From: a virus
Length of the DNA stretch: 64,000 nt
Reading direction: 5' to 3' (one strand)
Virus record (IMG/VR): IMGVR_UViG_3300007511_000001
Coordinates: 1-64,000 of that record
Part shown: piece after piece, positions 22,579 to 48,294 of the stretch
How the letters are laid out: each line of letters begins with the position of its first letter
Numbering within the stretch: the stretch's first letter is position 1
Notes under the pieces: model-generated
Seen by the model: the letters and a program-made list of their open reading frames with translations, nothing else
The model's database searches: none
What the model was told of the DNA's origin: nothing
Position numbers and translations under genes: made by a program

Positions 22579-24294
22579 ATGGATAAAATTGCTAATATAA
22601 GAGTATCTGATCGTGCTGGAGAATGGGCGAAAGATATTCTTGAACATTTTTATACAATGTACCCAGAATTGATGAATGTAGACGCTCGTGTGCTTTTTAA
22701 GAAAAAAGAACCTAATAAGGGTTATGGCATAGGCGGTCTTGATTTAGGCGCTGTTACAGTGCCTGTTGTTATTAGAAACTTTCATCTTGCTCCGTTGGAT
22801 GTAGCGGTTTCTCAAGAAGGTAATATACTACCTTTTAACCGCCATGTTGTAGTTGCACTAACTAATGATACATCTGCGTTTAAGAGCGCTCCACTATTAA
22901 AAGATTCGCAATCGTTCAAATTACTATTCGGACGTAATGCCTTATCACAGAGAGAAGATATGATTGATGCTAGTAAGGGTGTAGAAAAGACAGCTTCTGC
23001 CAAGAAATATATACAAGACAACTGGTCTAGTGAGTACAATGTTACAAATCTTATTGAAGATTGGTTCAATAAGCAGGCTGGTATAGTAGAGGCAGATGAG
23101 GACGGGGTTAGAGACAAATTACCAAGAGATGTATGTTTACTGGTAAAAAATGCCTCAGCAGATCACTCCTATAGTGGTTATTTCGGTAGTTCACATTTAC
23201 ATGACGTGGTAGAAGAGCGTGTCAATGCTGAACAGTTGCCAGAGGAGTTACGTGATCGTAAGATCATAGTGAAAACTGCAGCTAATGATGAAATCACTAA
23301 ATATGCTGAAACGGGGGATTTTACCCTAATCACTACATCTGATATGCGTACACTGGGTATAGATGGAGATGGTAATTATAAAGAATTTCCGTATATAGGC
23401 CATAATGTTAATAAAGAAGAGGAAGAGGCACTAGTTGAGAAATTAGCTGCTGCCCCCGGTTCTGGTGATTATGGCATGTGGTATGTCAACGGGCATTTTA
23501 CAGAACCTATGACAATATTAAACATAGAAACTAGTACAGAACCTGAAATGATGAAGATTGCTACCTTCGGGGGTACTTATAAGAAGAATTATCAGGTTAT
23601 TCGTCCTATTAAAGATATCGTAGAAGGCGAAAAACGTGGCGAGTACTACCTACCTACTAGCGCTTCGTGGGTCAAGCTAGCAAACTCTAGCGATGAGCTA
23701 GATAAATCTTATATGGGCGTGGCTACGCCTAAAATTGTCAAATTAGCGGAAAATAGCTACACATGGAAGGGTCAAGAGCTTAATAAGTATGCAGAAACAC
23801 GATTAAATGATTCTGGACCTTATACAAGTAAGGACACAATGTTGGCTCTTCTTAATATGGGCGCTAGTGAAAATGATATTTTGAAGATAGCGGAGCTTAA
23901 AGTGGGGGAAGTTGCTAATGTTAATAGTAAATTAGAACTTAAACCTACTATAGAGGAGTTCATAAAAGAAGCTGAACTCGCTGATAAAGAGTTTAAGCCT
24001 ATTTTCAAAATGGGTGAACTTGTTAAGATAGCTGCACCTATTAAAGACAAGAATACAGTTGATGCTGTTTTAGGGCTTGGTTATCTTAATGCAAATGTTA
24101 ATGAAGAAGAATATTTCGAATATATACCTCAATTAGAGGATGTTGCGCAGCGGTTATCAAAAATGCTATTGGATATTCGCCTTGGCGCACTTGATATGGA
24201 TGAAAAAATAGTATCGGAGGCGTTAGAAAGCTTATCAGAGCTTATTGTTACGCTAAAACGGTTAAAACAAACGAAAGTTAATAGGAGAAAGTAA
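22579..24294 (+). CDS. Virion-like protein with many K-x-A sites (571 aa)
   Basis: First gene after a consensus promoter. An N-terminal alpha/beta domain (SDRAGEWAKDILEHFYTMYPEL) is followed by a long acidic part. The motif Lys-x-Ala recurs at least ten times (VEKTASAKK, FNKQAGIVE, IVKTAAND, ITKYAETG, VEKLAAAP, MMKIATFG, WVKLANSS, IVKLAENS, LNKYAETR, LKIAELK). The same motif marks the tags and the capsid proteins. If it is the maturation cleavage signal, this protein would be cut into pieces. Family unknown. Confidence 0.7.
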   Translation: MDKIANIRVSDRAGEWAKDILEHFYTMYPELMNVDARVLFKKKEPNKGYGIGGLDLGAVTVPVVIRNFHLAPLDVAVSQEGNILPFNRHVVVALTNDTSAFKSAPLLKDSQSFKLLFGRNALSQREDMIDASKGVEKTASAKKYIQDNWSSEYNVTNLIEDWFNKQAGIVEADEDGVRDKLPRDVCLLVKNASADHSYSGYFGSSHLHDVVEERVNAEQLPEELRDRKIIVKTAANDEITKYAETGDFTLITTSDMRTLGIDGDGNYKEFPYIGHNVNKEEEEALVEKLAAAPGSGDYGMWYVNGHFTEPMTILNIETSTEPEMMKIATFGGTYKKNYQVIRPIKDIVEGEKRGEYYLPTSASWVKLANSSDELDKSYMGVATPKIVKLAENSYTWKGQELNKYAETRLNDSGPYTSKDTMLALLNMGASENDILKIAELKVGEVANVNSKLELKPTIEEFIKEAELADKEFKPIFKMGELVKIAAPIKDKNTVDAVLGLGYLNANVNEEEYFEYIPQLEDVAQRLSKMLLDIRLGALDMDEKIVSEALESLSELIVTLKRLKQTKVNRRK

Positions 24295-24887
24295 TGGAAG
24301 AAAAAGTTCTGTTCGAAGCCTTCCAGCGTGGTCTTAATGCAGAGTTAACTAAGGTAGCTGACTATCTAGGCTCTGATTTAGATAAAGAAGTCGCTTTTGA
24401 GGCTTTCCAACGTGGATTCAATGAGGAATTAGAGAAAAATGCTGCTAATATCGGCACGGCTGTTGGTCTTTTAGGCGCTGAGATTAAAGCCGGAGCTAAA
24501 GCTGGTATTGAGGCTACAAAGGTTGTAGCGAGTAAAGCAGTAAATGCTACTAAAGCTGGTGTCACCAAGGCTACTAAGTCTACAGGTGATGCGGTTACTA
24601 GCGCTGCTAAGGCTACTAGAGACTCTGCTGTAAATGCTGCTCATGCTACTGGTGGAGCAACAGTTGCTGCTACTAAGACAGTTGGCGCTGTTCCCGGCAA
24701 GGTAAATAGAAAAGTCAGGCAGGTAGCATACGGAGCTGGTGAGAAAGTAGAGGGTAAGGGCGCTACTCGTCTAGGTCGCTTTATTCAAACCCATCCAGGT
24801 GCAGTGGGTTATGGTGTATTAGGCACAGGCGCTGCAGGTGTTGGCTATGGTGGCTATGAAGCTGGCAAGCGTATCTTCGGTGACTAA
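24294..24887 (+). CDS. Tagged Lys/Ala-rich histone-like protein with membrane end (197 aa)
   Basis: Two copies of a 16-residue tag stand at the N-terminus: FEAFQRGLNAELTKVA and FEAFQRGFNEELEKNA. A Lys/Ala/Thr-rich region follows (KVVASKAVNATKAGVTKATK, residues 75-130), like histone H1 tails or LEA proteins, then a Gly/Ala hydrophobic hairpin near the end (VGYGVLGTGAAGVGYGGYEAG). It could condense DNA in the head or enter membranes on ejection. Terminator follows. Confidence 0.7.
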   Translation: MEEKVLFEAFQRGLNAELTKVADYLGSDLDKEVAFEAFQRGFNEELEKNAANIGTAVGLLGAEIKAGAKAGIEATKVVASKAVNATKAGVTKATKSTGDAVTSAAKATRDSAVNAAHATGGATVAATKTVGAVPGKVNRKVRQVAYGAGEKVEGKGATRLGRFIQTHPGAVGYGVLGTGAAGVGYGGYEAGKRIFGD

Positions 24888-25092: not shown

Positions 25093-25410
25093 ATGGTTAA
25101 GACATATTGGGAACTAATAGAGAAGAATGCCGGAGTGGTAAGTGGTACTAAGCGCTACTTACACCTACTACGGGGTGGGCATGCTAAAACATTAAATAGA
25201 GAAATAAATAAAAATTTAATATCCGGTATGCGCGCGAAAGGTATGGCTGATTTGCGAAGGAAGCAGTTTGTAAGGGGTCTTGCAGCATCTAGTAAAATTA
25301 ATGCCAGGGCAGCAGAGAAAGTTCGTGTCAAAGCAGCACGCGGTTTGACAGCTATGGGAATAACTGGCACTAGTACTACACTACTAGCACATAAAAAGCG
25401 TAAAAAATAA
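25093..25410 (+). CDS. TYWELIEK-tagged basic protein (105 aa)
   Basis: Start at ATG 25093-25095. The first residues MVKTYWELIEKNA are a tag shared with five other proteins of the window. The rest is very basic (GMRAKGMADLRRKQFVRGL) and ends LLAHKKRKK. Probable DNA-associated internal virion protein by tag and charge. A gap of about 175 bp without genes follows, with A/T runs and a weak GAG/CTC hairpin. Confidence 0.7.
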   Translation: MVKTYWELIEKNAGVVSGTKRYLHLLRGGHAKTLNREINKNLISGMRAKGMADLRRKQFVRGLAASSKINARAAEKVRVKAARGLTAMGITGTSTTLLAHKKRKK

Positions 25411-25586: not shown

Positions 25587-25772
25587 ATGTTAAAAGAATT
25601 AGGATTTCAAAAACGAGCTGCATTGCCCCTTGTACCATTAGCTATAGGTGCTGCTGGTGCAATAGGTGCGGGAATAGGAGTAAAAAAGTTTCTAAAAAAG
25701 AAAAAAGAAAAGAAACTAATGACGAATACATCGGATTCACCTAAACCGCGAACAGTTAATGTTAATTTATAA
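25587..25772 (+). CDS. LGF-tagged small membrane peptide (61 aa)
   Basis: MLKELGFQKRAALP tag, then one hydrophobic Gly/Ala segment (LVPLAIGAAGAIGAGIGV), then a Lys run (KKFLKKKKEKK). Looks like a membrane-inserting virion peptide. Confidence 0.7.
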   Translation: MLKELGFQKRAALPLVPLAIGAAGAIGAGIGVKKFLKKKKEKKLMTNTSDSPKPRTVNVNL

Positions 25773-26663: not shown

Positions 26664-27509
26664 ATGAACACTTATTGGGAATTAATAGAACAACACGAAC
26701 TTGAAAAACAAGCTAAGCTTGGTAAAGGTTTACAAACTATATTAAAAGGAAAAGCTCTTTTTTCACCAACAGCTTCACAGCAGATGCGCGGGCTAGCACA
26801 TACACATGGGCGAGAAGCAGCTAAACTTATGGCCAAGGGAGAGAAGAAGAAGGGCATTAGGATGGCACTTAAAGGCAAGCGAGCAAAAGGCATAAGTGGT
26901 GAACTCGGATTTCAAAAACAAGCTTACAGCCTGGAATCAACTCGGGAACATAACTACTTAGCGACCCATAAAGATGCATCAAACATAGATGCATTTTATG
27001 CAAATAAAACCAGCACTATGGCACAGCGTAACGCTAAAAGAATGTCTACCCCAAGGCTTCAAAAAGTTATAGCGGATATGGAATATTCTAAATCTATTGG
27101 AAAGCCGACCGCTAAGATTGCCCCCAGAAATAAGAAAGCTAAGGGCATAAATCCAAAAGATTCAAAGGCTTACAATAGATATATAGATGCTTTAAAGCTA
27201 GAACTGAAGCATCGACAGCATGGAATGTCTAAAACAGCAGGCGAAGCTGCAACGGCCTATAAAGTATTAAAACCTAAAGTATTAGAAATACTTAACGCAA
27301 GAAATTTTGCAGATGCAGATAGAATAGCCAGAAGTATACCGGTATTTTCCAAAAAACTGGAAAAGGTAACAAGAGGTAAAAAAGATAAACTAATATCAAA
27401 GTGGAAGACTGATGTAGGCAACACTATGGAAAAATCAGTTTCTGGTAATACCGAAAACCTGGCAGAGCATTATTTAAATAGAAGATTTAGAATATTTGAC
27501 GATATATGA
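26664..27509 (+). CDS. Mosaic protein with three tag-like modules (281 aa)
   Basis: Starts MNTYWELIEQHELEKQAKLG. A second tag lies inside (ISGELGFQKQAYSLE, about residue 80). A third junction, SKTAGEAATAYK near residue 190, is followed by a block paralogous to the 103-aa protein at 27749 (KPKVLEILNARNFADA versus KPVVLDALNVRSVRDA). All parts are very basic. It reads like a head-to-tail fusion of three internal proteins that a protease could separate. Confidence 0.75.
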   Translation: MNTYWELIEQHELEKQAKLGKGLQTILKGKALFSPTASQQMRGLAHTHGREAAKLMAKGEKKKGIRMALKGKRAKGISGELGFQKQAYSLESTREHNYLATHKDASNIDAFYANKTSTMAQRNAKRMSTPRLQKVIADMEYSKSIGKPTAKIAPRNKKAKGINPKDSKAYNRYIDALKLELKHRQHGMSKTAGEAATAYKVLKPKVLEILNARNFADADRIARSIPVFSKKLEKVTRGKKDKLISKWKTDVGNTMEKSVSGNTENLAEHYLNRRFRIFDDI

Positions 27510-28700: not shown

Positions 28701-29471
28701 ATGAAAGAATCTACTTATCTAAAAGATTTCGCAGCTGGCGCCGAGCCAACAGGTATTTATACCTTCCGCAATGCTTACAGAAATAAGGGCAAACACGGCC
28801 GCCACAAAACGTTTGGCAATGTTGGTGGATTTGCTGGTGGAGCAATACTCTCGACAGGTATGACGGCGGGCGGACTTGCAGCAGGCGGAGCCCTGCTTAA
28901 ACGTACCAAATGGGGCGGTATAAGTAGACATTTAGTAGAAGGTGCAAAAGATTCTTTAACTCTGTTTAATCCTGTCAAAACTGTCAGGGTTATGAAAGCT
29001 TTTCCCAAGGGGATGGGTATTTCAATGCGGCAGAAAAAGCTATTTGAGAATGTGGAGCGCACGACTCAGCGGGCTGAGAGATATGTAAAAGGCAAGAAGA
29101 AAATAGATATTACAACAGGACTGCCCGAAAGAAGTCGACAGGCTTTAGAAAAAGAAGTTTATAAACCATATAAAAAACTTGAGGCAGATAAAATACAGTT
29201 TAGACAAAAGCATAAAATGGATCCTTTTGTCGCTGTAAGAAAAGGCATGGCAGTTATAGGAGGGGCTACAACCGGTACTCTCGGTGGAGGTTTAAATGCC
29301 TTATCTGCGCATGCACAATATGATTCTGGAGTAAAAGCACGTAAAGGTACATTACTCCCTAAGCAAGAACAAAAGAAATTTTTAAAGAAATTAGGATTTA
29401 AATCGGACAAAATATGGGCGGAACGCAATATTATGCCTAAATTAATTTACAAGGAAATTAATTATGCTTAA
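28701..29471 (+). CDS. Basic Gly/Ala-hairpin protein, LGF motif at the end (256 aa)
   Basis: A Gly/Ala hydrophobic hairpin (GGFAGGAILSTGMTAGGLAAGGALL) lies at about 40-68 and a second one at about 180-210. Between them is a very basic helical part. KKFLKKLGFKSDKIWAERN near the C-terminus is the N-terminal tag motif placed at the other end. Overlaps the next gene by 8 nt. Confidence 0.65.
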   Translation: MKESTYLKDFAAGAEPTGIYTFRNAYRNKGKHGRHKTFGNVGGFAGGAILSTGMTAGGLAAGGALLKRTKWGGISRHLVEGAKDSLTLFNPVKTVRVMKAFPKGMGISMRQKKLFENVERTTQRAERYVKGKKKIDITTGLPERSRQALEKEVYKPYKKLEADKIQFRQKHKMDPFVAVRKGMAVIGGATTGTLGGGLNALSAHAQYDSGVKARKGTLLPKQEQKKFLKKLGFKSDKIWAERNIMPKLIYKEINYA

Positions 29472-30135
29472 AAAACTAGGCTTCGAAAAACAAGCTAAAG
29501 CAAGTTATAGCCATATAAGCACTGACAAGAAAAAAGGTACTTATCGCTATCGCGACGGCGAATCTGGCAGATTAGTAGATGTCAAGAAAAAACAACATAA
29601 AAAATACCAAAAAAGTATTGGTAAACCAGGCAGCTTGATCACAAAAACAGCAAAAGCCTACTCAAAAGAACCGGGTTACTGGAACGATGTAAAAGAGGTT
29701 AACAAGGGTATCCGCTGGTTACCTGCAGTAGGACTAGCTGCAGGTATGTTGGGCGGAGCTGCGCTCGCCAATAAAATTATAAATAGAGGTGCTGCTTCTA
29801 TTCCTAGTGCTATTGGGGGAGGAGCGGCAATGGCTGGTACAACTGTTGGGGGTCTTGTAGCTACTGCTATACCTCAAACGCATATCAGAGCTAAACGTAT
29901 TAAACGTTTACCAGAATCAAGTCCGCTCAGACAGCAATACTTATATACCCGAGCAAACCAGGCCAGGCAAACAGAAAAGCTACTTGAAGCAAACAAAGTT
30001 TATACCGAAGAGTGGAAACAGGTACCTCGCAGCACGGGTAGTCGCCAGAAAAGACACGACGAAACCATGAAGCGTATCCGCTCTAGATATGACACTGAAT
30101 ACGATGATGTTCTAGCACAGGTAGGATTAACATAA
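29464..30135 (+). CDS. LGF-tagged protein with glycine hairpins (223 aa)
   Basis: MLKKLGFEKQAKASYSH tag; a second tag-like site ITKTAKAYSKEPG follows at about 60. Hydrophobic Gly/Ala segments (VGLAAGMLGGAALAN; GGAAMAGTTVGGLVATAI) span about 87-140, then a basic coiled tail. A membrane-inserting, protease-processed virion protein is the simplest reading. Confidence 0.7.
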   Translation: MLKKLGFEKQAKASYSHISTDKKKGTYRYRDGESGRLVDVKKKQHKKYQKSIGKPGSLITKTAKAYSKEPGYWNDVKEVNKGIRWLPAVGLAAGMLGGAALANKIINRGAASIPSAIGGGAAMAGTTVGGLVATAIPQTHIRAKRIKRLPESSPLRQQYLYTRANQARQTEKLLEANKVYTEEWKQVPRSTGSRQKRHDETMKRIRSRYDTEYDDVLAQVGLT

Positions 30136-32689: not shown

Positions 32690-33204
32690 ATGCCTATACA
32701 CCCTGTAGCAAGTATGTCAATCGGAGCAGGTCTTGGTCTTGGTTTAACCGGGGTAGGCACAGGTATAAAGTGGTCTACGTATAAGGAAAAAACAAAAAAT
32801 CCAACCTTTAAAGACTTTTTTAAGAAAAATAAAGCGCATATCATAGGCTCGGCTGCTATAAATTCTACTCTCGGCGCTAGCCTTTTTATACCATCTAGTT
32901 CTACCCGATATCGGGCAAATTATAAGTATGAAAGAGCCTATACTAACAACTACAGTAGACCAACAACTTCTTTCAGTGATCACATGAAAGACATAGGCGG
33001 CGTTAATATAAAAACTAAGGCGGACGCTAAAAGGGCGTATATAGACGCAGCTAAAAAATATCATCCGGATATTAACAAAGATCCAAATGCAACAAAGAAA
33101 ATGCAAAAAATAAATGATGCTTGGAAAAAGCACAAGAGCATCCGGAGTTTAGCAAGCTTGCTTTTTTATTTAATAATAACCTTAAAACTTTAGGATTCAA
33201 ATAA
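32690..33204 (+). CDS. J-domain (DnaJ-like) membrane protein, frameshifted
   Basis: Residues 8-30 are a Gly-rich hydrophobic segment. A J-domain stands at about 110-155 with the HPD signature at His125-Pro126-Asp127 in AKKYHPDINKDPNATKKMQKINDAW. J-domains stimulate Hsp70 (DnaK). The annotated frame leaves at 33193 with an unlikely hydrophobic end. A shift to the -1 frame at the A5 run (33125-33129) gives AQEHPEFSKLAFLFNNNLKTLGFK and a stop overlapping the next ATG (TAATG). The shifted version fits both the J-domain helix and the LGF end better. Confidence 0.7.
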
Positions 33205-36366: not shown

Positions 36367-36594
36367 ATGAATACATTTTTAGAATTATCGGAAACAAATC
36401 CGACCAAGGAACAGCTAAAGAAAAATGCTGCTCAATACCACGATACCTATCCAGAAGCTAGTCACGGGTTTGCTCACTTGACAACCTTTGATTTAATGGA
36501 TGAAGCTGACCGCGATCACATGAGACTCGCGGCTAACAGGAAAGCTTCGGCTGGTCCAATAAGAAATCTAAAGGAGATCTTTAGAAATGGCTAA
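36367..36594 (+). CDS. MNTFLEL-tagged 75-aa protein
   Basis: Start at ATG 36367 matches the tag family better than the ATG 9 nt earlier. MNTFLELSETNPTKEQ leads to LKKNAAQYH; body acidic-His mixed, overlapping the next gene by 8 nt. Confidence 0.6.
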   Translation: MNTFLELSETNPTKEQLKKNAAQYHDTYPEASHGFAHLTTFDLMDEADRDHMRLAANRKASAGPIRNLKEIFRNG

Positions 36595-36898
36595 CACATA
36601 TTGGGAGTTAATGACCAAGGAAGCCGCTCCTGTCGGTCACCCCTTTTCCAAGACCTTTAGCGAAGAAGCTCGTGGAGCTTTCGGAAAAGCTACCACTACA
36701 GCAAAGCCGGGGGTACATCCATTTAGAGCAGCTGTTCCAAATCCAAATCTAAGTGATTTGTTCGGAAAAGCAAAACCGCGAAAATGGAAAGGTAAGCTAG
36801 GACTTGCAGGCCTCGGTTTGGGTATTGGAGCAGGCTTAATTGGCTTAAATAGTTATGCAAAGGGACAGCGTGAAGACTATAATAAGAGAGTTTTCTGA
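36587..36898 (+). CDS. TYWELMTK-tagged membrane protein (103 aa)
   Basis: MANTYWELMTKEAAPVG tag, Pro/Lys-rich middle, then one Gly-rich membrane segment (LGLAGLGLGIGAGLIGLNSY). Confidence 0.7.
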   Translation: MANTYWELMTKEAAPVGHPFSKTFSEEARGAFGKATTTAKPGVHPFRAAVPNPNLSDLFGKAKPRKWKGKLGLAGLGLGIGAGLIGLNSYAKGQREDYNKRVF

Positions 36899-39169: not shown

Positions 39170-40085
39170 AATTATTTTACCTTCTGCGGCTATTTTAGGA
39201 ACCGGTGTTGGAACTGCACTGGGGAATAGGTTTTTTGTTGACAGGTATAACAAGAAGCACGGTCCGAAGTCTTTCACTGAATTACAGAAACAGTATAAAG
39301 ACGTTAAACCGGGCGATGTTTTAATGGTGCGTGATTCTCATATGAGAGGGCCATCACACACCGCCGTGGTTTCTAGTAAGAATAGAATCACGGAAGTATT
39401 AGTCCCACAAAGGCATAAAGAGGTAGTTAGGTCTACAACACTTAATAAGTTCCTTAAAGATAGAGCGATTAAAGATGGTCAATTTATTCCTGATCAGGCT
39501 ATCAAATTTTCAGATGCTTTTCGTCCAGAAAAAGTGAATAAGTCTAAACTCAAGCGCTTGTCGGATAGTATGGTATCAAAAGGCAAGGAGTTCAAAGTTA
39601 AATATGACCCTTTGGCTAACATAGTATACAATACTACCCTGGAAGGGGTTGAAAAGGCTAAAGCGACTTGTGTATCTTTTACTAATAGTTTATTGCGAGA
39701 AGCGGGCGCTAAGACGCCAAAGAAAGCTCCAGTGTTTCCAAGGTCTTCTGTAAAGGGCTTGAACAAAATAACAAAAATTAAGGCAAGAGAAGCTTATACT
39801 GCGCCTCTTGGTATGATGACTGCGGCAGCAGGAGTGATAGCCTTAGCTAAAGGCAAAAAGAAAATAGGATTACCCCTTATGGCCGCAGGCGTATTAGCCA
39901 ATGCTGTTCCTGTTACTAGGGATGCAGATAATTATATATCCAGTACAGCCACCAGGATGGTAGGCCGTAACCTAAAACATACATTTTCTACTAATAAAAA
40001 GGACCAGCCTAATCTAGATATGGGCATAGGCGCTACTGCGCTTGGTGTTCCTTCTGCTTTAGGGATAGCAAAGTTACTAAAATGA
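39162..40085 (+). CDS. Permuted papain-like hydrolase with membrane tail (307 aa)
   Basis: KPGDVLMVRDSHMRGPSHTAVV (His66 in the conserved SHT) and KATCVSFTNSLL (Cys170) give the same His-then-Cys order as the protein at 35865. Residues 215-260 contain two Gly/Ala hydrophobic segments. Compared with the shorter paralogue it adds a membrane-interacting C-terminus. Probably a virion-associated amidase or peptidase used at entry. Confidence 0.65.
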   Translation: MSKIILPSAAILGTGVGTALGNRFFVDRYNKKHGPKSFTELQKQYKDVKPGDVLMVRDSHMRGPSHTAVVSSKNRITEVLVPQRHKEVVRSTTLNKFLKDRAIKDGQFIPDQAIKFSDAFRPEKVNKSKLKRLSDSMVSKGKEFKVKYDPLANIVYNTTLEGVEKAKATCVSFTNSLLREAGAKTPKKAPVFPRSSVKGLNKITKIKAREAYTAPLGMMTAAAGVIALAKGKKKIGLPLMAAGVLANAVPVTRDADNYISSTATRMVGRNLKHTFSTNKKDQPNLDMGIGATALGVPSALGIAKLLK

Positions 40086-41632
40086 GATCACCGCAGACGA
40101 TTAAATTAAAAAAATCTCAACTAGTTGAGAGGTTATTTTACCTCAATGGCAATCCTTTGTCCTTGAAGGATTATCGTCATATGCGTCCCATTTACGACAT
40201 GGATGATTCTAAACTAGTTATGCAGTTTGGAAGGCAGACTACGAAATCTTCTACTATGGCTAATATCATGTTGGCTAATAGTATTATAAAAAACGGGTTT
40301 CACTCCATGTATGTATCTCCTACAGTGGACCAGACTAAGGTATTTTCAAATGATAGGCTAGCGCCGCTCATTGAAAGTTCCCCGTGGATTAAGAAAATGT
40401 ATATTAGTTCCAAATTGGAGCAAAACGTTTTTCGTAAAAAACTATTGAATCAGTCAACAATGTATCTTAGATACGCACTTTTAAGTGCGGACAGGCTTCG
40501 TGGTTATTCGAACGACATGATTTTATATGATGAGGCACAGGATTTACTGCAGGACATAGTACCAATTGCAAACCAGTCCATGTCACGTTCTTTATACAAA
40601 CGCGTAATGTTTGCTGGCACCCCTAAAAGAACTGTGGGTACTTTAGCATTCTATTGGGGCAAATCCAGTAAGAATGAGTGGATGCCAAAGTGTAGTCATT
40701 GTAATAAATACAACTATTTAGACGAAAAGAACATTGGTACTAAAGGTTTAATTTGTCGACACTGCGGCGGAGCTTTAAACCCAAATGATGGTTTGTGGGT
40801 TCGCACGGGCAAAAAAGATGCTGAGTATCAAGGTTTTAGAGTATCACAGCTTCAGTTCTTTGGCGCTCCTTGGGTTGATTGGAAAAATGATATCATAATC
40901 CCAATGGAGGATTATGGCGCTGCTCAATTCTATAACGAGGTTTTGGGCATTGCGCATGATGAAGGTGTAGCTCCTATTACAGAAGCTGAAATAAAAGCAT
41001 GCTGCACCGGTGGACCAATGACAGACAAGCCTAATCAAGCTGATAAGAGTTACAAATATGCACTTGGTCTTGATTATGGTCCTGTTAACTCCAATGCCTC
41101 TTTTACATTACTTTCTGTAATGCATAAAATTCCAGGTAAAACAGATGTTGTTAAGGTTAGGTATTTAAAGAAATACGATGGCAAAGAAGCAGATTTTTCT
41201 TATATACATCAGGATATACCTAGACAATTTAATACTTGGAGAGCGACTATAGCCGGTACAGACTATGGTCTGGGCGAGGCGTCTAATTCAGAACTGCGAG
41301 ACCGCCTGGGTGATGATAAGATTATAGCTTACCAACACTTAGGTACACAAAAAGACCGTATAAGATGGAACCAGCGTATGCGTGCTTATACACTTTCACG
41401 CAATACAGTAATGACACAGTTCTTTAACAAAATTAAAAAGAAGAAAATTATTTTTCCCCAATGGGAAGATTTTAAACCATTTGCCAGAGATATCTTAGCA
41501 GTATCTATTGATTATGATGAAGATAAGGGCAAAATGGCATACATAAACTCAGAACCAGATGACGCTCTACATTCTATGTTATACGGGGCTTTAGCGCTCG
41601 AGCTAGTGGAAGGAATGTCAGATGAGTACTAG
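40082..41632 (+). CDS. terL: Terminase large subunit (516 aa)
   Basis: Packages DNA into proheads with an ATPase motor and a headful or sequence-specific nuclease. Walker A is GRQTTKSS (residues 50-57), Walker B is MILYDEAQ (Asp150, Glu151). A zinc ribbon (Cys204, Cys207, Cys225, Cys228) is inserted after the ATPase part. The RNase H-like nuclease has ALGLDYGPVN (Asp331), a second acidic loop AGTDYGLGE (Asp394), and a third near DDALHSMLYG. All key residues are present and length is normal. ATGA overlap with the gene before. Confidence 0.95.
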   Translation: MRSPQTIKLKKSQLVERLFYLNGNPLSLKDYRHMRPIYDMDDSKLVMQFGRQTTKSSTMANIMLANSIIKNGFHSMYVSPTVDQTKVFSNDRLAPLIESSPWIKKMYISSKLEQNVFRKKLLNQSTMYLRYALLSADRLRGYSNDMILYDEAQDLLQDIVPIANQSMSRSLYKRVMFAGTPKRTVGTLAFYWGKSSKNEWMPKCSHCNKYNYLDEKNIGTKGLICRHCGGALNPNDGLWVRTGKKDAEYQGFRVSQLQFFGAPWVDWKNDIIIPMEDYGAAQFYNEVLGIAHDEGVAPITEAEIKACCTGGPMTDKPNQADKSYKYALGLDYGPVNSNASFTLLSVMHKIPGKTDVVKVRYLKKYDGKEADFSYIHQDIPRQFNTWRATIAGTDYGLGEASNSELRDRLGDDKIIAYQHLGTQKDRIRWNQRMRAYTLSRNTVMTQFFNKIKKKKIIFPQWEDFKPFARDILAVSIDYDEDKGKMAYINSEPDDALHSMLYGALALELVEGMSDEY

Positions 41633-42158
41633 AACATATTGGGAGCTTATGACGAAGAGAGCAGCTTACGACGATAAACGTGGTAGGTACTTTATAGCAA
41701 TCCCCACCATATCAGGTGGACCAGAACACATGACAATAAAATTTTTGGGGGACTTAACTGGCAGTCAAGTAGACAAAGTTAAACTCCAAATGGAAGATAT
41801 AAACAAAATACAAAAAATGCCATTGGTTAGTGAAGGCGTTGGGATACTTGGTAGAAAAAATTTATTTATGGTTAATTTTATTGAAGATAAGGACAAACGT
41901 CTAAAAGATCTTTTTAATATTTTTAATAATAAAAAATCACCTATCACGCCACACGTAACTTCGTTCAAGGTAAAAACACCTACACCGCCTTCAGGATATA
42001 ATTCTGGCGGTATGCGACCAATGGATACTATATTAGCAGATAAAGTGGTACTATATAAGACATTAGGTGCCTACAAATACAAATCGGTACATGAAGTTGT
42101 GCTTAAAAAAAGAACCCCCTGGACTTGGATAAAGGACAGATTTGCAAATTGGGTGTAA
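41622..42158 (+). CDS. Tagged 2H phosphoesterase (178 aa)
   Basis: Residues 1-15 are the tag MSTRTYWELMTKRAA. The body has the two HxT motifs of the 2H phosphoesterase (LigT) superfamily: HMTIKFLGD (His36, Thr38) and PHVTSFKV (His111, Thr113), 75 residues apart as expected. The superfamily hydrolyses 2'-5' or cyclic phosphodiesters; T4 Acb1, which destroys CBASS cyclic oligonucleotides, belongs to it. The tag suggests packaging into the capsid. Anti-CBASS activity is inference. Confidence 0.8.
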   Translation: MSTRTYWELMTKRAAYDDKRGRYFIAIPTISGGPEHMTIKFLGDLTGSQVDKVKLQMEDINKIQKMPLVSEGVGILGRKNLFMVNFIEDKDKRLKDLFNIFNNKKSPITPHVTSFKVKTPTPPSGYNSGGMRPMDTILADKVVLYKTLGAYKYKSVHEVVLKKRTPWTWIKDRFANWV

Positions 42159-42202: not shown

Positions 42203-42940
42203 ATGGTAACACAAGCAGAATATGCAGAGTATGGTAAAAAGGCTGCTCGTAGCTATATTGATGAACAGGTACCGCTACACGACTCCCTTGTGAAGGTAGC
42301 TGAGGATTTGCAATTAAATAGACACGAGATTGACAGGCTTGTAGAGGAGGCCAACACAGCTACATATGTCAAGTTATTCGAGAATACTGTTGAGGATGAT
42401 AAGTATATTGAGTTTCCTGTAGCAGAGGCGGAAAAGGTAGCAGAAGCTATTGAGCCTAAAATAGTATTTTCTAAAGTGGCTAGTTTTTCCGAGGATTATA
42501 ATTCTCCGCCAGAGGAAGACGGACCTACCGATGATGAGACTATAAAAGCTATATTTGGTAATCCAGAATCTCAGGAAATAGAAAAAACCGCAGAGATTAT
42601 AGATCATGTTTCTATTGATAAGAAACGAGCTCTTAGAACTCAAATGCATGAGTTAACTTATCATTTTGATGACAAGTCAGAGCAATTTATAGACTTTGTT
42701 AAGAAGGCCGCTTTCAACGGTGTTGATCCCGATTCATTAGGAGCTGCTATCAAAACACATGTTGATAGTAATATTATTGATTCTCTTATTGATCAGGCTA
42801 AACAACGCATTAATCCTTCGGACAGTTTAGATAAGGTTGCGTCTTTGCCAGAGACAACCGGCGTAGTCTTGTTAGCTTCAGAGCTTGTAAGTGTAGCAAA
42901 AAAATACGTTAACTTGAGGGGTAGCCAGAATGACAACTAA
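42203..42940 (+). CDS. Acidic head-core/scaffold-like protein (245 aa)
   Basis: Acidic, helical, and with at least seven K-x-A sites (YGKKAARS, LVKVAEDL, AEKVAEAI, FSKVASFS, IEKTAEII, VKKAAFNG, LDKVASLP). Placed between terminase and protease, where core proteins are found. Core proteins of T4-type heads are acidic, helical and shredded by the prohead protease, which fits. Confidence 0.6.
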   Translation: MVTQAEYAEYGKKAARSYIDEQVPLHDSLVKVAEDLQLNRHEIDRLVEEANTATYVKLFENTVEDDKYIEFPVAEAEKVAEAIEPKIVFSKVASFSEDYNSPPEEDGPTDDETIKAIFGNPESQEIEKTAEIIDHVSIDKKRALRTQMHELTYHFDDKSEQFIDFVKKAAFNGVDPDSLGAAIKTHVDSNIIDSLIDQAKQRINPSDSLDKVASLPETTGVVLLASELVSVAKKYVNLRGSQNDN

Positions 42941-43547
42941 CGATTTTATAGAACAGTATAAGCAAGGAAATATACCTAAAAGCACCATAATTAAAATGGC
43001 TGCTCTTAAGGGCGAAATTGAAAAGCTGGCTGAAGACTCAAGGATGCCTAAAAGTTGGGGAGGGTTTAAAGGTTCGGCTAAACAGCTTGGGTACATAGCT
43101 TTAATCTCTGCTTTAGCTGGCGGTGTAATGACGGCCGGAGCCAAAGGATTAGAGAAGCTTGACGAGAAGTTGTTTGATGACAAACGCAAATTAAAAGCGT
43201 TTAAAGATATGACATCTAAATTTCCAGAGTTACTAAGAGATAACGATAAGAAAGCTGTTGTTGATTATTTCTCTTCTTTATGGCATTTTTCACCTCATAT
43301 AGCTAATGACCCCATGGCGGCGAGATCATATATTAAGCATGCACTTACCTTACATGAAGTGGGCGGTCCTACTTATATGACTTATAAAGATTTGATTTCT
43401 GCCCAAGAAAAAGCAGGGAAAACAAAAGACGCCGGACCTCTTAATACAGCAATGCAGTTTCCGCTTGCACAAGTACAGCAATTCAGCGGACCTTTTGATA
43501 AATATGATTATTATGGACAACCAAACGTTAGTCTATCAGGCTCATAA
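42930..43547 (+). CDS. Head-module protein with one membrane-like segment (205 aa)
   Basis: N-terminal tag-like part IIKMAALKGEIEKLAEDS with two K-x-A sites, then a hydrophobic segment (YIALISALAGGVMTAGAKG), then a polar helical domain. Ends one base into the protease start (TAATG). Function unknown. Confidence 0.6.
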   Translation: MTTNDFIEQYKQGNIPKSTIIKMAALKGEIEKLAEDSRMPKSWGGFKGSAKQLGYIALISALAGGVMTAGAKGLEKLDEKLFDDKRKLKAFKDMTSKFPELLRDNDKKAVVDYFSSLWHFSPHIANDPMAARSYIKHALTLHEVGGPTYMTYKDLISAQEKAGKTKDAGPLNTAMQFPLAQVQQFSGPFDKYDYYGQPNVSLSGS

Positions 43548-45259
43548 TGTTAAAACAACCAGAATATGAATTACATGACTTAGGTGTAAGCGTTGAGCTT
43601 CTCGACGTAGGCGGAATTGCGCCTTTGGAGAAAACGGCCGAGATGTCAACCGATCTTCAAACCGCTATTTCTGCTATAAAGCCTACTTCTGGTAAAGTAT
43701 ATATTTTAGTTAACGCTCTGGGTGCTGGTGAATACTATGGCAGTAATAGAAACGGTGATTACTTTCCGGAAAGAGTTCTTAAACAATATCATAAAACATT
43801 TGAAGCCTTAGCCAGAGTATACAAGCACCATAAAAACAAAGATCCTCTTAGAAGTTATGGTAAACCTGTATTTAGCCATTACAATGACAGCATGCACCGT
43901 GTAGAGCTTATACTTGAAATAGACAAGGGCAAAGATCCTAGAATAGAACAAAAAATCAAAGATGGAGACATTAAGGTTTCCATGGGAGCCAAGGTGCCGT
44001 TTGATATTTGTTCTATATGCGGTCATAAGTCCAGAAAGATGTCTGAATACTGTGAGCATTTACGCAGGCCGGTTCTTAATAGCACATTGTCTGACGGGCG
44101 TAAAGCGTACGCCATAAATACACAACCTAAATTTTTTGATATTTCTATTGTAACCATCCCAGCCGATAAAACAGCTTTCATGATGAAGAAGGTTGCATCT
44201 GCTGAGGTAGCTATGCCTTCAGTTGAAATTGCTCATGAACTATTTAAACGGGCTAGAGTTAAAGAAGCGGAAATAGAAAAAGAGATAGAAGGCGAACCAA
44301 TTGCCGTAGACACAGATCCTAAAAAATTGGTATATGAATCACAAGACGAAATACCGAAAAAAGAATTACTTGCTCTTGTAGATAAGTATGGTGCAGAGAA
44401 TTTATTACGCGGATTGGCAGAGCTCCACATAATGCCAAAGCCTGTTGATTTTCAGCGCATAGTATTACATAAGAACAAGATGTTTGATTTGCTAGAGCAG
44501 CTTGAAAACGCAAAAAGAGTATTTCCTGTATTACCAGATATGGAAGAATCTCCATTCGAGTGTTCTAGAGATTCTTTACCCCATAGTTTATATAATGATA
44601 TAGCCCCGTATGTACCAGATCGCGCGCTGTCCAAGCCATTAATAATTATTCGTATAATGAAAAAATATGCGCAATATGGCCCTCAGATGCCGGAAAATGT
44701 ATTTACACCGTATTCTAAGAATGAGCTTGCACAGATGGAGAGAGGTTCTCATGTGCGCACGCCTATATATAAAAACCCGGCTCTACCGTTGATAGGTTTG
44801 GGTGCTATGTATTTGGGGTATTCAAAATATTTTAAGAAAGCTATCAACCGCGGGAAGCTTGAAAAAAAGTTTCTTTCTAAGCCGTGGATGTTTCCATTAG
44901 TTGCTTTTGGTATCGGCGCCGGTGCAATAGGTGCCCAAAAATTACATGAGGCCAGGCTCAGTGAGATGGCTAATATGAAAAAATATGCCGCAACTAATTA
45001 TTTGACTGGTCTGTTAGTATCTTTACCCGCTACGTATTATACGTCTTACAATGTCGGGGCCAAGAAAAGATATGGCCAACCTGTTGGAACTATAGAAAAT
45101 ACAGTGGCTAAGCATCCACTAATAACCGGCGCAATGGTCGGAACGGGAGCAGCAGCTCTTATGAAAAGGCTTACAAAAGTGGCTTCAGCTTCGCATCTGA
45201 CAGAGCTAGAACCACACGAATTAGACGAATTGTATAAAAAACTTGTACTTAGAACTTGA
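43547..45259 (+). CDS. Prohead maturation protease with zinc site and membrane-like C-terminus (570 aa)
   Basis: Residues 50-210 carry the prohead protease fold: NRNGDYFPE, KPVFSHYNDSMHRVELI (catalytic His probably 111 or 117), DIKVSMGAKV (Ser145) and FFDISIVTIPADKTA, close to the DISxV..PA..A end of gp21/HK97-type serine proteases. A zinc cluster (Cys155, Cys158, Cys169, His171) is inserted. Residues 400-540 hold three hydrophobic Gly-rich segments, unusual for the family. K-x-A sites at LEKTAEMS (residue 31) and elsewhere could be self-cleavage sites. Confidence 0.8.
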   Translation: MLKQPEYELHDLGVSVELLDVGGIAPLEKTAEMSTDLQTAISAIKPTSGKVYILVNALGAGEYYGSNRNGDYFPERVLKQYHKTFEALARVYKHHKNKDPLRSYGKPVFSHYNDSMHRVELILEIDKGKDPRIEQKIKDGDIKVSMGAKVPFDICSICGHKSRKMSEYCEHLRRPVLNSTLSDGRKAYAINTQPKFFDISIVTIPADKTAFMMKKVASAEVAMPSVEIAHELFKRARVKEAEIEKEIEGEPIAVDTDPKKLVYESQDEIPKKELLALVDKYGAENLLRGLAELHIMPKPVDFQRIVLHKNKMFDLLEQLENAKRVFPVLPDMEESPFECSRDSLPHSLYNDIAPYVPDRALSKPLIIIRIMKKYAQYGPQMPENVFTPYSKNELAQMERGSHVRTPIYKNPALPLIGLGAMYLGYSKYFKKAINRGKLEKKFLSKPWMFPLVAFGIGAGAIGAQKLHEARLSEMANMKKYAATNYLTGLLVSLPATYYTSYNVGAKKRYGQPVGTIENTVAKHPLITGAMVGTGAAALMKRLTKVASASHLTELEPHELDELYKKLVLRT

Positions 45260-45283
45260 CAATATACATATACATATTACATT
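45256..45283 (+). promoter_or_regulatory. Promoter TTGACA-N16-TACATT
   Basis: TTGACA at 45256-45261, TACATT at 45278-45283. Precedes the scaffold-capsid genes. Confidence 0.55.
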
Positions 45284-45301
45284 ACTAATGTTAAACGTTA
45301 A

Positions 45302-45321
45302 TTAAATAACTGTTTATTTAA
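45302..45321 (+). promoter_or_regulatory. Perfect hairpin next to the ribosome site
   Basis: TTAAATAA-CTGT-TTATTTAA, directly before AGGAGG. May protect the 5' end of the capsid mRNA or set translation rate. Confidence 0.4.
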
Positions 45322-45336
45322 CAGGAGGTTTTTAAA

Positions 45337-45861
45337 ATGGCTTTAGATTTACAAGAAGTTCTATCTAGTTTATCGTCAAAAACTAATCCAGAAGATAATT
45401 TTTTCGCCAAGCTTGCTGAAGATAATGAAGCTGCAGCAGAGCCGGTACAAGAACAAGATTTGGAAAAAATTGCTGAGTTAGAGAATTTAGGACGTGAATT
45501 TGGAAGAGCTTTTGCAGAGGACCTGGAAAAGGTTGCTGTTGGTAAGGTTGGCATGACACCAGAAACTGGTGCTCCAATGAACCCAGCGGTAGCAATGCCA
45601 GCAAACAATGCGGATGTTAATCCTGAAGTATTAGCTCAAGTTATGGCACTGATTAACCAAGCAGCAAGCGGTGTTGGACAAACAGGTTCATTAGTCGCAG
45701 GGTCTGTAGGTGGGGTAGGGGCAGCAACTCCTCAAGCACCGGCAGCTCCGGACCAGTATCCGATTGCAGCTGACGCCATAGGAACTGTTGGACGTGAAAA
45801 AACGGCCGCGGATCGTGTAGTTGGTACCATTTGGGAAAATTACTTCGGAGGTGAAGAATAA
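45337..45861 (+). CDS. Scaffold-like acidic protein (174 aa)
   Basis: Acidic and helical with FFAKLAED, DLEKIAELE, AEDLEKVAVG and REKTAADR. Residues 95-150 are Ala/Pro/Gly-rich. The piece LGREFGRAFAEDLEKVA resembles the FEAFQRGxNxEL tags at 24294. Strong AGGAGG. Likely a prohead core protein. Confidence 0.6.
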   Translation: MALDLQEVLSSLSSKTNPEDNFFAKLAEDNEAAAEPVQEQDLEKIAELENLGREFGRAFAEDLEKVAVGKVGMTPETGAPMNPAVAMPANNADVNPEVLAQVMALINQAASGVGQTGSLVAGSVGGVGAATPQAPAAPDQYPIAADAIGTVGREKTAADRVVGTIWENYFGGEE

Positions 45862-46151
45862 TGACTGGACTATTAGACCTTTACGAAAACATGACGAAAG
45901 AAGCAGAAGTTTCTCAAGAGCAAGTTGTTGCTGACCAAGAACGCGTTGAGGTTATTGAGAAGTATGCGAGTTTCGCGGAAGATGCTTTGGTAGAAAATGG
46001 CGAACAATACACAGAGGATGACGTAATTAAGCTTGCCTGTGCGATGATTGACCATGATCTCGAAGTAGAAGACAATATGGAAAAAGTGGCCGAATTAGAC
46101 GAAGCGGGAAGAATTATGGCGCGTGCTTTTCTATCCGAATTACAGGGATAA
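45861..46151 (+). CDS. Small acidic core-type protein (96 aa)
   Basis: TAATG coupled, GGAGG upstream. Contains NMTKEAEVS, IEKYASFAED, NMEKVAELD and the end EAGRIMARAFLSELQG, similar to FGRAFAEDLEK in its neighbour. Confidence 0.6.
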   Translation: MTGLLDLYENMTKEAEVSQEQVVADQERVEVIEKYASFAEDALVENGEQYTEDDVIKLACAMIDHDLEVEDNMEKVAELDEAGRIMARAFLSELQG

Positions 46152-46180
46152 GAAAAAGCTGAATAATTCTGAGGTATAAG

Positions 46181-46561
46181 ATGGCCAATTTACAAGAGAT
46201 ATTAGAGGCATCCGACATTCAAACCAATCTTGACTTTGGTGATGGCCATGTTAAGGTTGCAGAGGAGTCTGCTGATACTTCTGTGAATTTAGATAAGGAT
46301 TCGATAGAGAAATTAGCCGAAGTTTTGGATGCTTTGGGCGAAGAGGATTCTATCATTGATGAGATGGCTAAAATAGCTGTTTTAAAAGATATGTTAGATG
46401 TATCGGAGCTTACAGAAGATGATAAAACAATGCTGAAAGAAGCTGGGTTAATTTTACCTCCTTTTGCCGATAGAGAGCCAGATCTTAATCGTTTTAAGTA
46501 TCTAGCCGAAAGGCTGGCTGATGGCGAAGCACTTTTACCTGCGGGGGAAAGTAATGAATAA
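46181..46561 (+). CDS. Acidic core-type protein (126 aa)
   Basis: Acidic helices with VKVAEESA, IEKLAEVLD, MAKIAVLKD. Same design as the two genes before it. Confidence 0.6.
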   Translation: MANLQEILEASDIQTNLDFGDGHVKVAEESADTSVNLDKDSIEKLAEVLDALGEEDSIIDEMAKIAVLKDMLDVSELTEDDKTMLKEAGLILPPFADREPDLNRFKYLAERLADGEALLPAGESNE

Positions 46562-46880
46562 TCGTGAAATCCTTAAACAGGCAGCTGCTACTCTTCGTGG
46601 ACTTTCAGGTAGAGTAGAACAGTTAGAGGCAGAGAAACATGTTTTTGACAAAGCACTTTCTCTTACTTCTAAGCTTATAGACGAGGGTCAAATATCTTCG
46701 GGTAAAGCTCTTGAAAAATTAGCTGAACTTAGAGACGAGACCTTAGATGATTTGGTTACGTTGGGCAAGGCAATCGAACTTACTAAAAACTCCGACTTTC
46801 AGGTAAAACTGGGAGAAGTTGCGGATGAAAACAGTAAAGATGGCAATGATCCTCTAACCAGTTTTTTACTAGGCGACTAA
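46554..46880 (+). CDS. Coiled-coil core-type protein (108 aa)
   Basis: Start ATG 46554-46556 (GGGGGA upstream) gives MNNREILKQAAATLRG, a tag with K-Q-A. Coiled coil follows; LEKLAELRD and a C-terminal FLLGD. Probably scaffold or core. Confidence 0.6.
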   Translation: MNNREILKQAAATLRGLSGRVEQLEAEKHVFDKALSLTSKLIDEGQISSGKALEKLAELRDETLDDLVTLGKAIELTKNSDFQVKLGEVADENSKDGNDPLTSFLLGD

Positions 46881-46908
46881 ACTAAAATAATATTTTGGAG
46901 GTTAAAAA

Positions 46909-47352
46909 ATGTTAAAACTTCAAACTGATCTAAATTTAATAGATCGTTTTGATGCGACTGTTATTGCAGCAGGTTCGGGTTATGACATTCTTACCAGCGG
47001 TTATCAAGGTATGTGGGCTACTCCTGCCGCAACGGGGTGGGATCTTGCTCAACAGGGCGAACATCCGGCATACTTAATTTGGACCGAAGGTAATTATGAT
47101 GGAACAACCGAGTCAATCGGGTTTACCCCAGATGCTACAAATACAACTAAACTTACTTTCTTAGGTGGTAAGTTCCGTATTAAAACAAACATGTTTACGG
47201 GAACACCAACAGCTGGTCAACCTTTACAGGTTGGGGCGACTGGTGGTAAATTAACTGTTGTTTCAGATGTAGAAACCTTAGCTAGTGGCCTTGTAGCCCA
47301 TTGCTTAGAGACTACAGATGCTGATGGTTACATAACAATTCAAACACTTTAA
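46909..47352 (+). CDS. Probable capsid decoration protein (147 aa)
   Basis: Beta-rich and Thr/Gly-rich (FKIKT-like strands, KFRIKTNMFTGTPTAGQP, GGKLTVVSDVETLASG), no K-x-A sites, strong GGAGG, directly before the major capsid gene with one promoter. Position and fold-like composition match head decoration or stabilising proteins. Confidence 0.65.
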   Translation: MLKLQTDLNLIDRFDATVIAAGSGYDILTSGYQGMWATPAATGWDLAQQGEHPAYLIWTEGNYDGTTESIGFTPDATNTTKLTFLGGKFRIKTNMFTGTPTAGQPLQVGATGGKLTVVSDVETLASGLVAHCLETTDADGYITIQTL

Positions 47353-47367
47353 TAGGAGGTACATAAT

Positions 47368-48294
47368 ATGTCTTATGATGTTGATCCTAAAGTCCTTACT
47401 GAGTTATTCTTAACTAAGATGGACACAGACATGGAAAAGACAGCTGCAGAGGCTGGTGCCTTCGTACGTATGAGATTACGTGAACTTTCGTTCATGCGTA
47501 AAATCATGCAACCGGAGTATGTGACCGCAGCGGACTGTCAACGTTCCGTGAACCATGACCAATTGGTCAAAATCGTGGATAAGGAACCCAATTCAACAGC
47601 GCAGGCGTTGAATTTCCGTGGTAAACCAAATGCCAATTATGTAACAGGCGAACGTTACGAGATTTCTTTCTATATGATCAGCTCGGATGATTTCCAGAAG
47701 ACCGAGGAAGAATTACTTGCATACGAAATGCCTATTACAGACGTTATCGAAAGAAACTCTGTAAAAGATATCCAGAAAATTGAAGACACCAAATTCATGG
47801 AAACTATTTCTGGTATTTGCTCAGGGACAGGCGGAAAAGAAGACACAATTGCTGTAGCATCTGGCACAGCTCTTAATCCTATTCCACCTAGTGTATTTAG
47901 ACAAGGATTTAACTTGTTAGAAGAAACAAGTGGATCCTCACCTCACTACACTGATTTGATTCTTATGAATCAATCCGATTACAATAAACTTATTGAGTGG
48001 AACAGTTCTCAGGTTGGCGATTCAATTGCTAACGAGATCACTATCAATGGTTTTACTTACCCAACACTGTTTGGTAAAAAAGTAATCTCTACCATTAAGG
48101 GAGAACTAGTACCAGAAAACGATCTTTACTTCTTCGCTCCAAAAGAATACTTAGGGCACGCTTATATTCTAGGCGATACTAAATTCTGGATCAAGAAAGA
48201 AAAGAATCTAGTCACCTGGGCTGCTTACGAGTTCATTGGTGTAGGTATTGGTAACATTAATGGAGTTGCAAGAATAACATATTCTGTAACATAA
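47368..48294 (+). CDS. Major capsid protein (308 aa)
   Basis: Perfect AGGAGG. The N-terminus DMEKTAAEAGAFV holds a K-x-A site and could be a short propeptide. The body shows features of HK97-fold capsids: an N-terminal arm, an extended E-loop region around residues 60-110 (VDKEPNSTAQALNFRGKPNAN), a helix-rich P domain, and an A-domain end with LVTWAAYEFIGVGIGNINGVARITYS. Followed by a strong terminator, as usual for the most expressed gene. Confidence 0.85.
   Translation: MSYDVDPKVLTELFLTKMDTDMEKTAAEAGAFVRMRLRELSFMRKIMQPEYVTAADCQRSVNHDQLVKIVDKEPNSTAQALNFRGKPNANYVTGERYEISFYMISSDDFQKTEEELLAYEMPITDVIERNSVKDIQKIEDTKFMETISGICSGTGGKEDTIAVASGTALNPIPPSVFRQGFNLLEETSGSSPHYTDLILMNQSDYNKLIEWNSSQVGDSIANEITINGFTYPTLFGKKVISTIKGELVPENDLYFFAPKEYLGHAYILGDTKFWIKKEKNLVTWAAYEFIGVGIGNINGVARITYSVT

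Follow-up and report, generated by a model that had tools for sequence, protein, structure and literature searches.

The first 64 kb of IMG/VR virus record IMGVR_UViG_3300007511_000001, a tailed phage of 189,182 bp, carry a head-gene cluster in which the tripeptide Lys-any residue-Ala (KxA) recurs, and the question raised by this locus is what so short a motif is for. Throughout, 'the window' means this whole stretch of 64,000 nucleotides. Downstream of a terminase gene at 40082 come the cluster's genes at 42203-46880, among which gene 43547 encodes a predicted prohead protease, and then the major capsid gene at 47368. An earlier note on this DNA had proposed KxA as the cleavage code of the maturation protease, and our analyses support that proposal through the conservation of the motif in the capsid propeptide, a control scan of phage T4, the reported N-terminus of the mature phage G capsid protein, the avoidance of the motif in capsid bodies and a protease model resembling gp21 and the assemblins. 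Judged from sequence, it is very probable that KxA is the cleavage signal of the prohead protease encoded by 43547-45259, which would cut C-terminal to Ala.

Sequences and gene calls

Genes in the window's phage and in related loci were taken as the longest open reading frames (ORFs) beginning with ATG, and for this reason some gene starts may be wrong. A search of viral contigs with the capsid protein found 298 relatives; the 80 best of these were taken, a choice that favours near relatives. From 85 capsid hits we obtained 62 distinct N-termini, 57 representatives and finally 39 loci with at least 5 kb upstream. Capsid conservation was assessed on 64 distinct sequences (the window, Salmonella phage Arash, Vibrio phage D69 and 61 loci), and protease conservation on 36 of 46 alignment rows, ten being omitted that started inside the domain, duplicated the window or were too divergent. 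The closest cultured relatives by capsid protein are Arash and the Vibrio phages D69, D148 and D181, at approximately 31–32% identity; in Arash and D69 the protease, core and capsid genes are ordered as in the window. Counts for Arash cover 224 coding genes, those interrupted at a piece boundary being omitted together with some short hypothetical genes in a tRNA-rich stretch.

A local excess of KxA

The nine head genes between 42203 and 47368 contain 39 KxA against 14.0±3.4 in shuffles that preserve composition, the highest of 2000 shuffles reaching 29, and when every residue pair at gaps of 0–7 is scored blind in these genes, KxA comes first of 2,723. Across the 262 ORFs called in the whole record there are 300 occurrences and 295.3 are expected, which is chance level, so the excess is local; it is confined to gene 22579, to genes 42203-47368 and to one protein outside the window, the 371-residue product of 164692-165807, with 11 copies versus 2.7 expected, a number reached in none of 5000 shuffles. 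The earlier note had called the motif rare in early genes and fibres, which holds in the sense that the motif does not rise above chance there; its estimate of ten or more copies in the 571-residue product of gene 22579 was borne out by a count of 15. The acidic core-like protein at 42203 has homologs with 24–55% identity in Arash, D69 and loci L003 and L004, and these also hold many KxA, mostly at shifted, non-aligned places; in these fast-changing proteins the motif is kept in number rather than in position, as expected if number outweighs position. The small protein at 46909 has no KxA.

The same scan, applied blind to T4 gp67, gp68, gp21 and gp22, puts IxE at the top of 2,166 pairs with LxE next, and no IxE or LxE signal is seen in five other T4 genes. 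Since L/I-x-E is the code given for the T4 protease gp21 (PMC9026906), the scan returns a known cleavage code, and its result in the window therefore points to a protease code as well. That code is not of the Glu type: the top pair in the head cluster is KxA rather than a Glu-ending pair, and LxE, fourth in the nine window genes (31 versus 16.0), is raised genome-wide too.

Specificity and local context in related loci

In the 7 kb upstream of the capsid gene, the 39 representative loci together contain 1354 KxA where 650.5 would be expected, and KxA leads all 2,397 pairs; every one of the 39 loci exceeds expectation, 38 of them by a factor of more than 1.5. The earlier note had named, as a finding that would refute its proposal, a motif no commoner in head proteins than composition predicts; on this check the motif proved commoner in the window and in every related locus. 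Downstream of the capsid gene it is depleted (297 versus 361).

An excess of this kind could arise as an artefact of composition, or of helical, acidic proteins rich in Lys and Ala; the core proteins do appear helical and rich in Glu, Lys and Ala, and the T4 core proteins are also mildly KxA-rich (12 versus 7.1, rank 56). However, the shuffles retain composition, and the ratio of observed to expected counts, 2.08 for KxA, is 0.84 for AxK, 1.06 for KxxA, 0.90 for RxA, 1.03 for KxS and 0.70 for KxG, with KxxxA, QxA and ExA likewise unraised (at most 1.06). KxA outnumbers AxK in all 39 loci, and Lys24 and Ala26 of the capsid protein stay fixed amid varying neighbours. These controls of direction, spacing and residue rule the artefact out, and we attach virtually no probability to it.

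The surroundings of the upstream KxA are also distinctive. Glu is favoured 3.4-fold immediately before Lys (K-1), Met, Phe, Leu and Ile are favoured at K-2 and acidic residues at K-3 and K-4; the middle residue prefers Thr, Val, Ile, Leu or Gln and avoids Pro, Gly and Asp, and Glu, Ser or Ala is favoured after the motif, where Pro is avoided, as it is strongly at the middle position. This refines the earlier description of Glu or Leu before the Lys: Glu stands, and the preference for Leu, Met, Phe and Ile belongs one residue earlier. A working consensus would be [ED][ED][LMFI]E-K-[TVILQ]-A, cut, then [ESA], and by analogy with T4 gp21, which cuts after Glu, the best reading of the predicted cut is [LMFI]-E-K-[TVILQ]-A↓[ESA].

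A site profile was trained on the relatives minus the two nearest, with a cut-off score of 3, training and test proteins being partly homologous. In the window's phage 27 of 53 head sites score at least 3, as does the capsid site; so do 8 of 46 sites in the island of ORFs at 24-42 kb and, in two further genes, 5 of 12. Among the remaining 188 KxA of the genome 7 reach this score, the figure for one shuffled genome being 6.5. It is likely, on these scores, that some KxA occurrences are not cut sites. KxA as a rule for all structural proteins was considered and rejected.

Conserved sites in the protease and the capsid protein

Both N-terminal sites named in the earlier note are present, K29-T-A31 in the protease and K24-T-A26 in the capsid protein. 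In the protease, Lys29 is found in 36 of 36 aligned relatives and Ala31 in 35 of 36. An AlphaFold2 (AF2) model of residues 1-250 has a mean predicted local distance difference test (pLDDT) score of 84, with residues 1-29 nearly all of low confidence, residues 27-29 below 50 and a helix from residue 35, so that the fold starts just past K29-T-A31. A second KxA, at residues 215-217, may be a candidate site of C-terminal self-processing.

In structural comparison by VIA-align the protease model best matches T4 gp21 (Z 10.3 over 128 residues, 2.9 Å), followed by herpesvirus assemblins at Z 9.6 and lower; MCE proteins, at approximately 5, fall well below, and the predicted fold is of the gp21/assemblin kind. 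Foldseek alone gave a weak match (E 6e-3), and neither the protease nor the capsid protein nor gene 22579 had a Pfam match. His95 and Ser145 are invariant in 28 sequences. An hhalign comparison, itself weak (E 0.026), pairs Ser145 with gp21 Ser140 and does not set His95 opposite gp21 His85; we take Ser140 and His85 to be catalytic in T4. Directly after the predicted nucleophile Ser145 comes a CxxC...CxxH insert (residues 155-172), which is shared with gp19 of phage G and gp90 of Bixzunavirus Alice and is absent from gp21. In loci L003, L033, L039, L074 and L086 the protease ORF is 937 to 1,674 residues long, enlarged by an insertion, perhaps an intein, that lies close to where the protease domain ends.

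The AF2 model of the capsid protein matches HK97-fold shells by Foldseek. Among the 64 distinct capsid sequences Lys24 is present in 64 and Ala26 in 63, the middle residue being mostly Val, Ile, Leu, Thr, Gln or Glu, and KxA is the sole strongly fixed site of the N-terminal extension. Mature capsid bodies are poor in the motif (36 versus 83.8 expected in 57 proteins, which are homologous).

Phage G is the sole relative found with a published mature capsid end. According to Table 1 of Hua et al. 2017 (PMC5646251), its capsid protein gp27 is encoded as 282 residues and has 255 when mature, as established by N-terminal sequencing, with a listed mass of 28.2 kDa; the cut therefore follows Ala27. 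A product of 255 residues starts at Gln28, after ...VALA, and has a computed mass of 28.17 kDa, close to the listed value. In a MAFFT alignment Ala27 of phage G falls on Ala26 of the window, seven residues separating each from the same conserved Arg; Arash, D69, L006 and L009 have one extra residue near the site, and their rows are displaced by one column in that alignment.

These observations bear on whether the KxA sites might be cut by some other enzyme, a host protease or one that cuts after Lys in the manner of trypsin, as the Lys of the motif could hint. RxA is not enriched, Ala is as fixed as Lys, the phage G cut follows the aligned Ala, and a predicted gp21/assemblin-like protease that itself bears KxA is encoded inside the cluster; cleavage by another enzyme is accordingly very improbable.

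A somewhat better contender, although still an unlikely one, is that KxA is no cut site at all and acts as a short binding motif recruiting proteins into the prohead core, through the protease, the scaffold or the shell. Such a role would suit the many copies in each core protein, as for multivalent binding, and the place of KxA next to short N-terminal tags that resemble targeting signals. It sits poorly with the avoidance of the motif in the mature capsid body and in downstream proteins, with the strong avoidance of Pro at the middle position and directly after Ala, with the single copy where the folded protease domain starts and with the alignment of KxA to the published mature N-terminus of phage G; moreover, the identical scan recovers the proven cut code of T4.

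Several findings weigh against KxA as a cleavage code. The p-values are overstated, because the loci are related and many sites are homologous and hence non-independent. The 52 Arash proteins labelled structural, most of which look like tail proteins, show no overall enrichment (119 versus 108.5 expected); the labels were presumably derived from mass spectrometry, the record itself being silent on their source. Among the 64 capsid sequences one, that of L036, carries Ser in place of Ala (KVS), with a KVA seven residues upstream, and the AF2 model places K24-A26, with fair confidence, in a helix, within its first turn, and not in a loop. The C-terminal KxA of the protease is found in only 29 of 36 relatives, although in some of the seven lacking it an insertion cuts the aligned fragment. 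Finally, phage G has Ala instead of Lys at P3 of its published capsid cut, and its capsid protein is distant, with 18% identity to that of the window in the alignment.

When the refined motif is sought within the first 40 residues of the Arash proteins, it occurs in 8 of 52 structural and 4 of 129 hypothetical proteins (Fisher 0.005). In phage G gp1-27 KxA ranks second of 2,400 pairs, with a weaker excess (57 versus 33), and in Bixzunavirus Alice it is weakly raised (gp90, 19 versus 8.8), the capsid protein having Gly at the aligned place. Cleavage of KxA by the cluster's own protease remains our favoured explanation.

N-terminal tags and the upstream island

Upstream of the head genes, at 24.3-42 kb, lies an island of 31 forward ORFs, many of which open with a short tag that has KxA as its last three residues; the tags fall into at least two types (TYWEL.. 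and MLKxLGF..). A KxA with its Lys at or before residue 25 occurs in 15 of the 31, against 7.3±2.4 in shuffles, of which 5 in 2000 attain this number; elsewhere in the genome it occurs in 16 of 218 ORFs. From sequence, this island of approximately 30 small ORFs looks like head cargo, and its tagged LigT/2H-phosphoesterase-like protein might be a counter-defence enzyme delivered from the head. The T4 internal proteins IPII and IPIII start MKTYQEFIAEA; that TYWEL resembles TYQEF is no more than suggestive. TYWEL tags were not found in the relatives' loci beyond the window's phage; a loose TYxEL pattern occurs in 7 of 1,353 distinct proteins, five of them in the window, versus 1.1 expected.

Gene 22579, just before the island, encodes a product with a weak BLASTP match to the Arash structural protein gp218 (E 4e-4 over 79 residues); neither it nor gene 164692 has homologs at E 1e-3 in the fetched loci. 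Comparable KxA-rich proteins were seen in Arash (L017 43646-44515) and D69 (L018 34153-35004), and a 53-residue ORF with EKTA lies outside the window at 168442-168603. The island also includes a J-domain ORF (DnaJ, PF00226 4e-8) at 32690-33193. In Arash (L017, L019), RNA polymerase beta subunits are annotated in and near the head region. Features of the window are collected in Table 1.

Table 1. Genes and KxA sites of the window, in order of position.
Feature	Position	Strand	Basis
571-residue protein, 15 KxA	22579..24294	+	15 vs 4.0 expected, 0/5000 shuffles
197-residue protein, tandem N-terminal duplication FEAFQRGxNxELxKxA	24294..24887	+	sequence; 2/3 KxA sites score 4.6, 4.7
Small ORF, N-terminal tag KTYWELIEKNA (K11)	25093..25410	+	sequence
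ORF, N-terminal tag NTYWELIEQHELEKQA (K15)	26664..27509	+	sequence, profile
ORF, N-terminal tag MLKKLGFEKQA (K9)	29464..30135	+	like tags at 25587, 30991, 33899
Small ORF, N-terminal tag NTYWELMTKEA (K11)	36587..36898	+	sequence, profile
Terminase large subunit (context)	40082..41632	+	phrog_675 5e-62, PF05876
LigT/2H-phosphoesterase-like ORF, tag RTYWELMTKRA (K12)	41622..42158	+	PF02834 E 0.003, below curated cut-off
Acidic core-like protein, 10 KxA	42203..42940	+	10 vs 1.9 expected
Head-cluster protein, 5 KxA, one high-scoring (K32-L-A)	42930..43547	+	modest enrichment, 5 vs 2.3
Predicted prohead (head maturation) protease, 570 residues	43547..45259	+	phrog_18299 head maturation protease 5e-11, phrog_2774 6e-19
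KxA, protease residues 29-31 (K29-T-A31)	43631..43639	+	end of disordered N-terminal extension
KxA, protease residues 215-217, just past protease domain	44189..44197	+	KxA near there in 29/36 relatives
Core-like protein, 4 KxA	45337..45861	+	4 vs 1.0
Core-like protein, 96 residues, 4 KxA	45861..46151	+	4 vs 0.45
Core-like protein, 126 residues, 4 KxA	46181..46561	+	4 vs 0.9
Core-like protein, 2 KxA	46521..46880	+	2 vs 1.0
Major capsid protein, HK97 fold	47368..48294	+	phrog_2522 7e-4; phage G capsid 6wkk phmmer 4e-5
KxA, capsid residues 24-26 (K24-T-A26), predicted cut after Ala26	47437..47445	+	conservation; alignment with published phage G end

Proposed mechanism and significance

The sequence of events that we envisage is the T4 plan with a different code. 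The protease would gather inside the prohead with the acidic, KxA-rich core proteins and, once the prohead is complete, would cut itself at residues 29-31 and perhaps at 215-217. It would then take 26 residues off the capsid protein, cut the core into small pieces that exit the shell and trim the short targeting tags from cargo proteins, which would make room for DNA.

If this is true, the proteins that are cut in a large group of uncultured phages could be read from sequence, and head-packed cargo and injected proteins could be predicted in the same way, packing itself being probable. There would also be an Ala-cutting prohead protease among phages, standing between the Glu-cutting T4 kind and the herpesvirus assemblin, and the blind residue-pair scan that recovered the code of T4 may decode the proteases of other phages ahead of experiment. 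More tentatively, and with somewhat more doubt than belief, we suggest that a zinc-knuckle lineage of prohead proteases is widespread, spanning this clade, phage G and Bixzunavirus, and that its members cut after Ala, as the assemblins do, and not after Glu, as in T4, this clade having sharpened the code to K-x-A and loading the island ORFs as head cargo by means of a T4-like TYxEL tag.

Comparison with known systems

The locus resembles T4 in that its predicted protease is encoded among the head genes, its core-like proteins carry many sites and its capsid protein has a predicted cut close to the N-terminus; the short-tagged ORFs of the island may correspond to the T4 internal proteins, whose tags are described as directing proteins into the head and as being cut by gp21 (PMC9026906). 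It differs in its code, K-x-A instead of L/I-x-E, and in the CxxC...CxxH insert, which gp21 lacks. The predicted capsid propeptide of 26 residues is shorter than that of T4, which has 65.

With the giant phages the locus would share a cleavage code of three residues (P3-x-P1), the cutting of many head proteins and self-cleavage of the protease; the codes reported are S/A/G-x-E for phiKZ, S/A/G/T-x-E for 201phi2-1 and A-x-E for SPN3US (PMC5694885, PMC10052503). As described there these phages cut after Glu, whereas here P1 would be Ala and P3 Lys. Phage G is closer in two respects, its gp19 being the second-ranked structural match to the window protease in BFVD and the published cut of its gp27 following the Ala aligned with that of the window (PMC5646251); it differs in the Ala at capsid P3 and in the weaker KxA excess. 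The herpesvirus assemblins share the predicted protease fold, and that of pseudorabies virus ends at Ala at its release site (PMC4498786), although the portion of that account consulted describes no Lys-x-Ala code; moreover, these are animal viruses, in which the protease is fused to a scaffold precursor. No earlier report of a K-x-A prohead code was found in the open literature searched, which omits most subscription papers. In the accounts consulted, the known prohead codes compared here (T4, phiKZ, 201phi2-1 and SPN3US) all end in Glu; by comparison, Lys-any residue-Ala appears to be the mark of head-maturation substrates in a large group of tailed phages, most of them uncultured.

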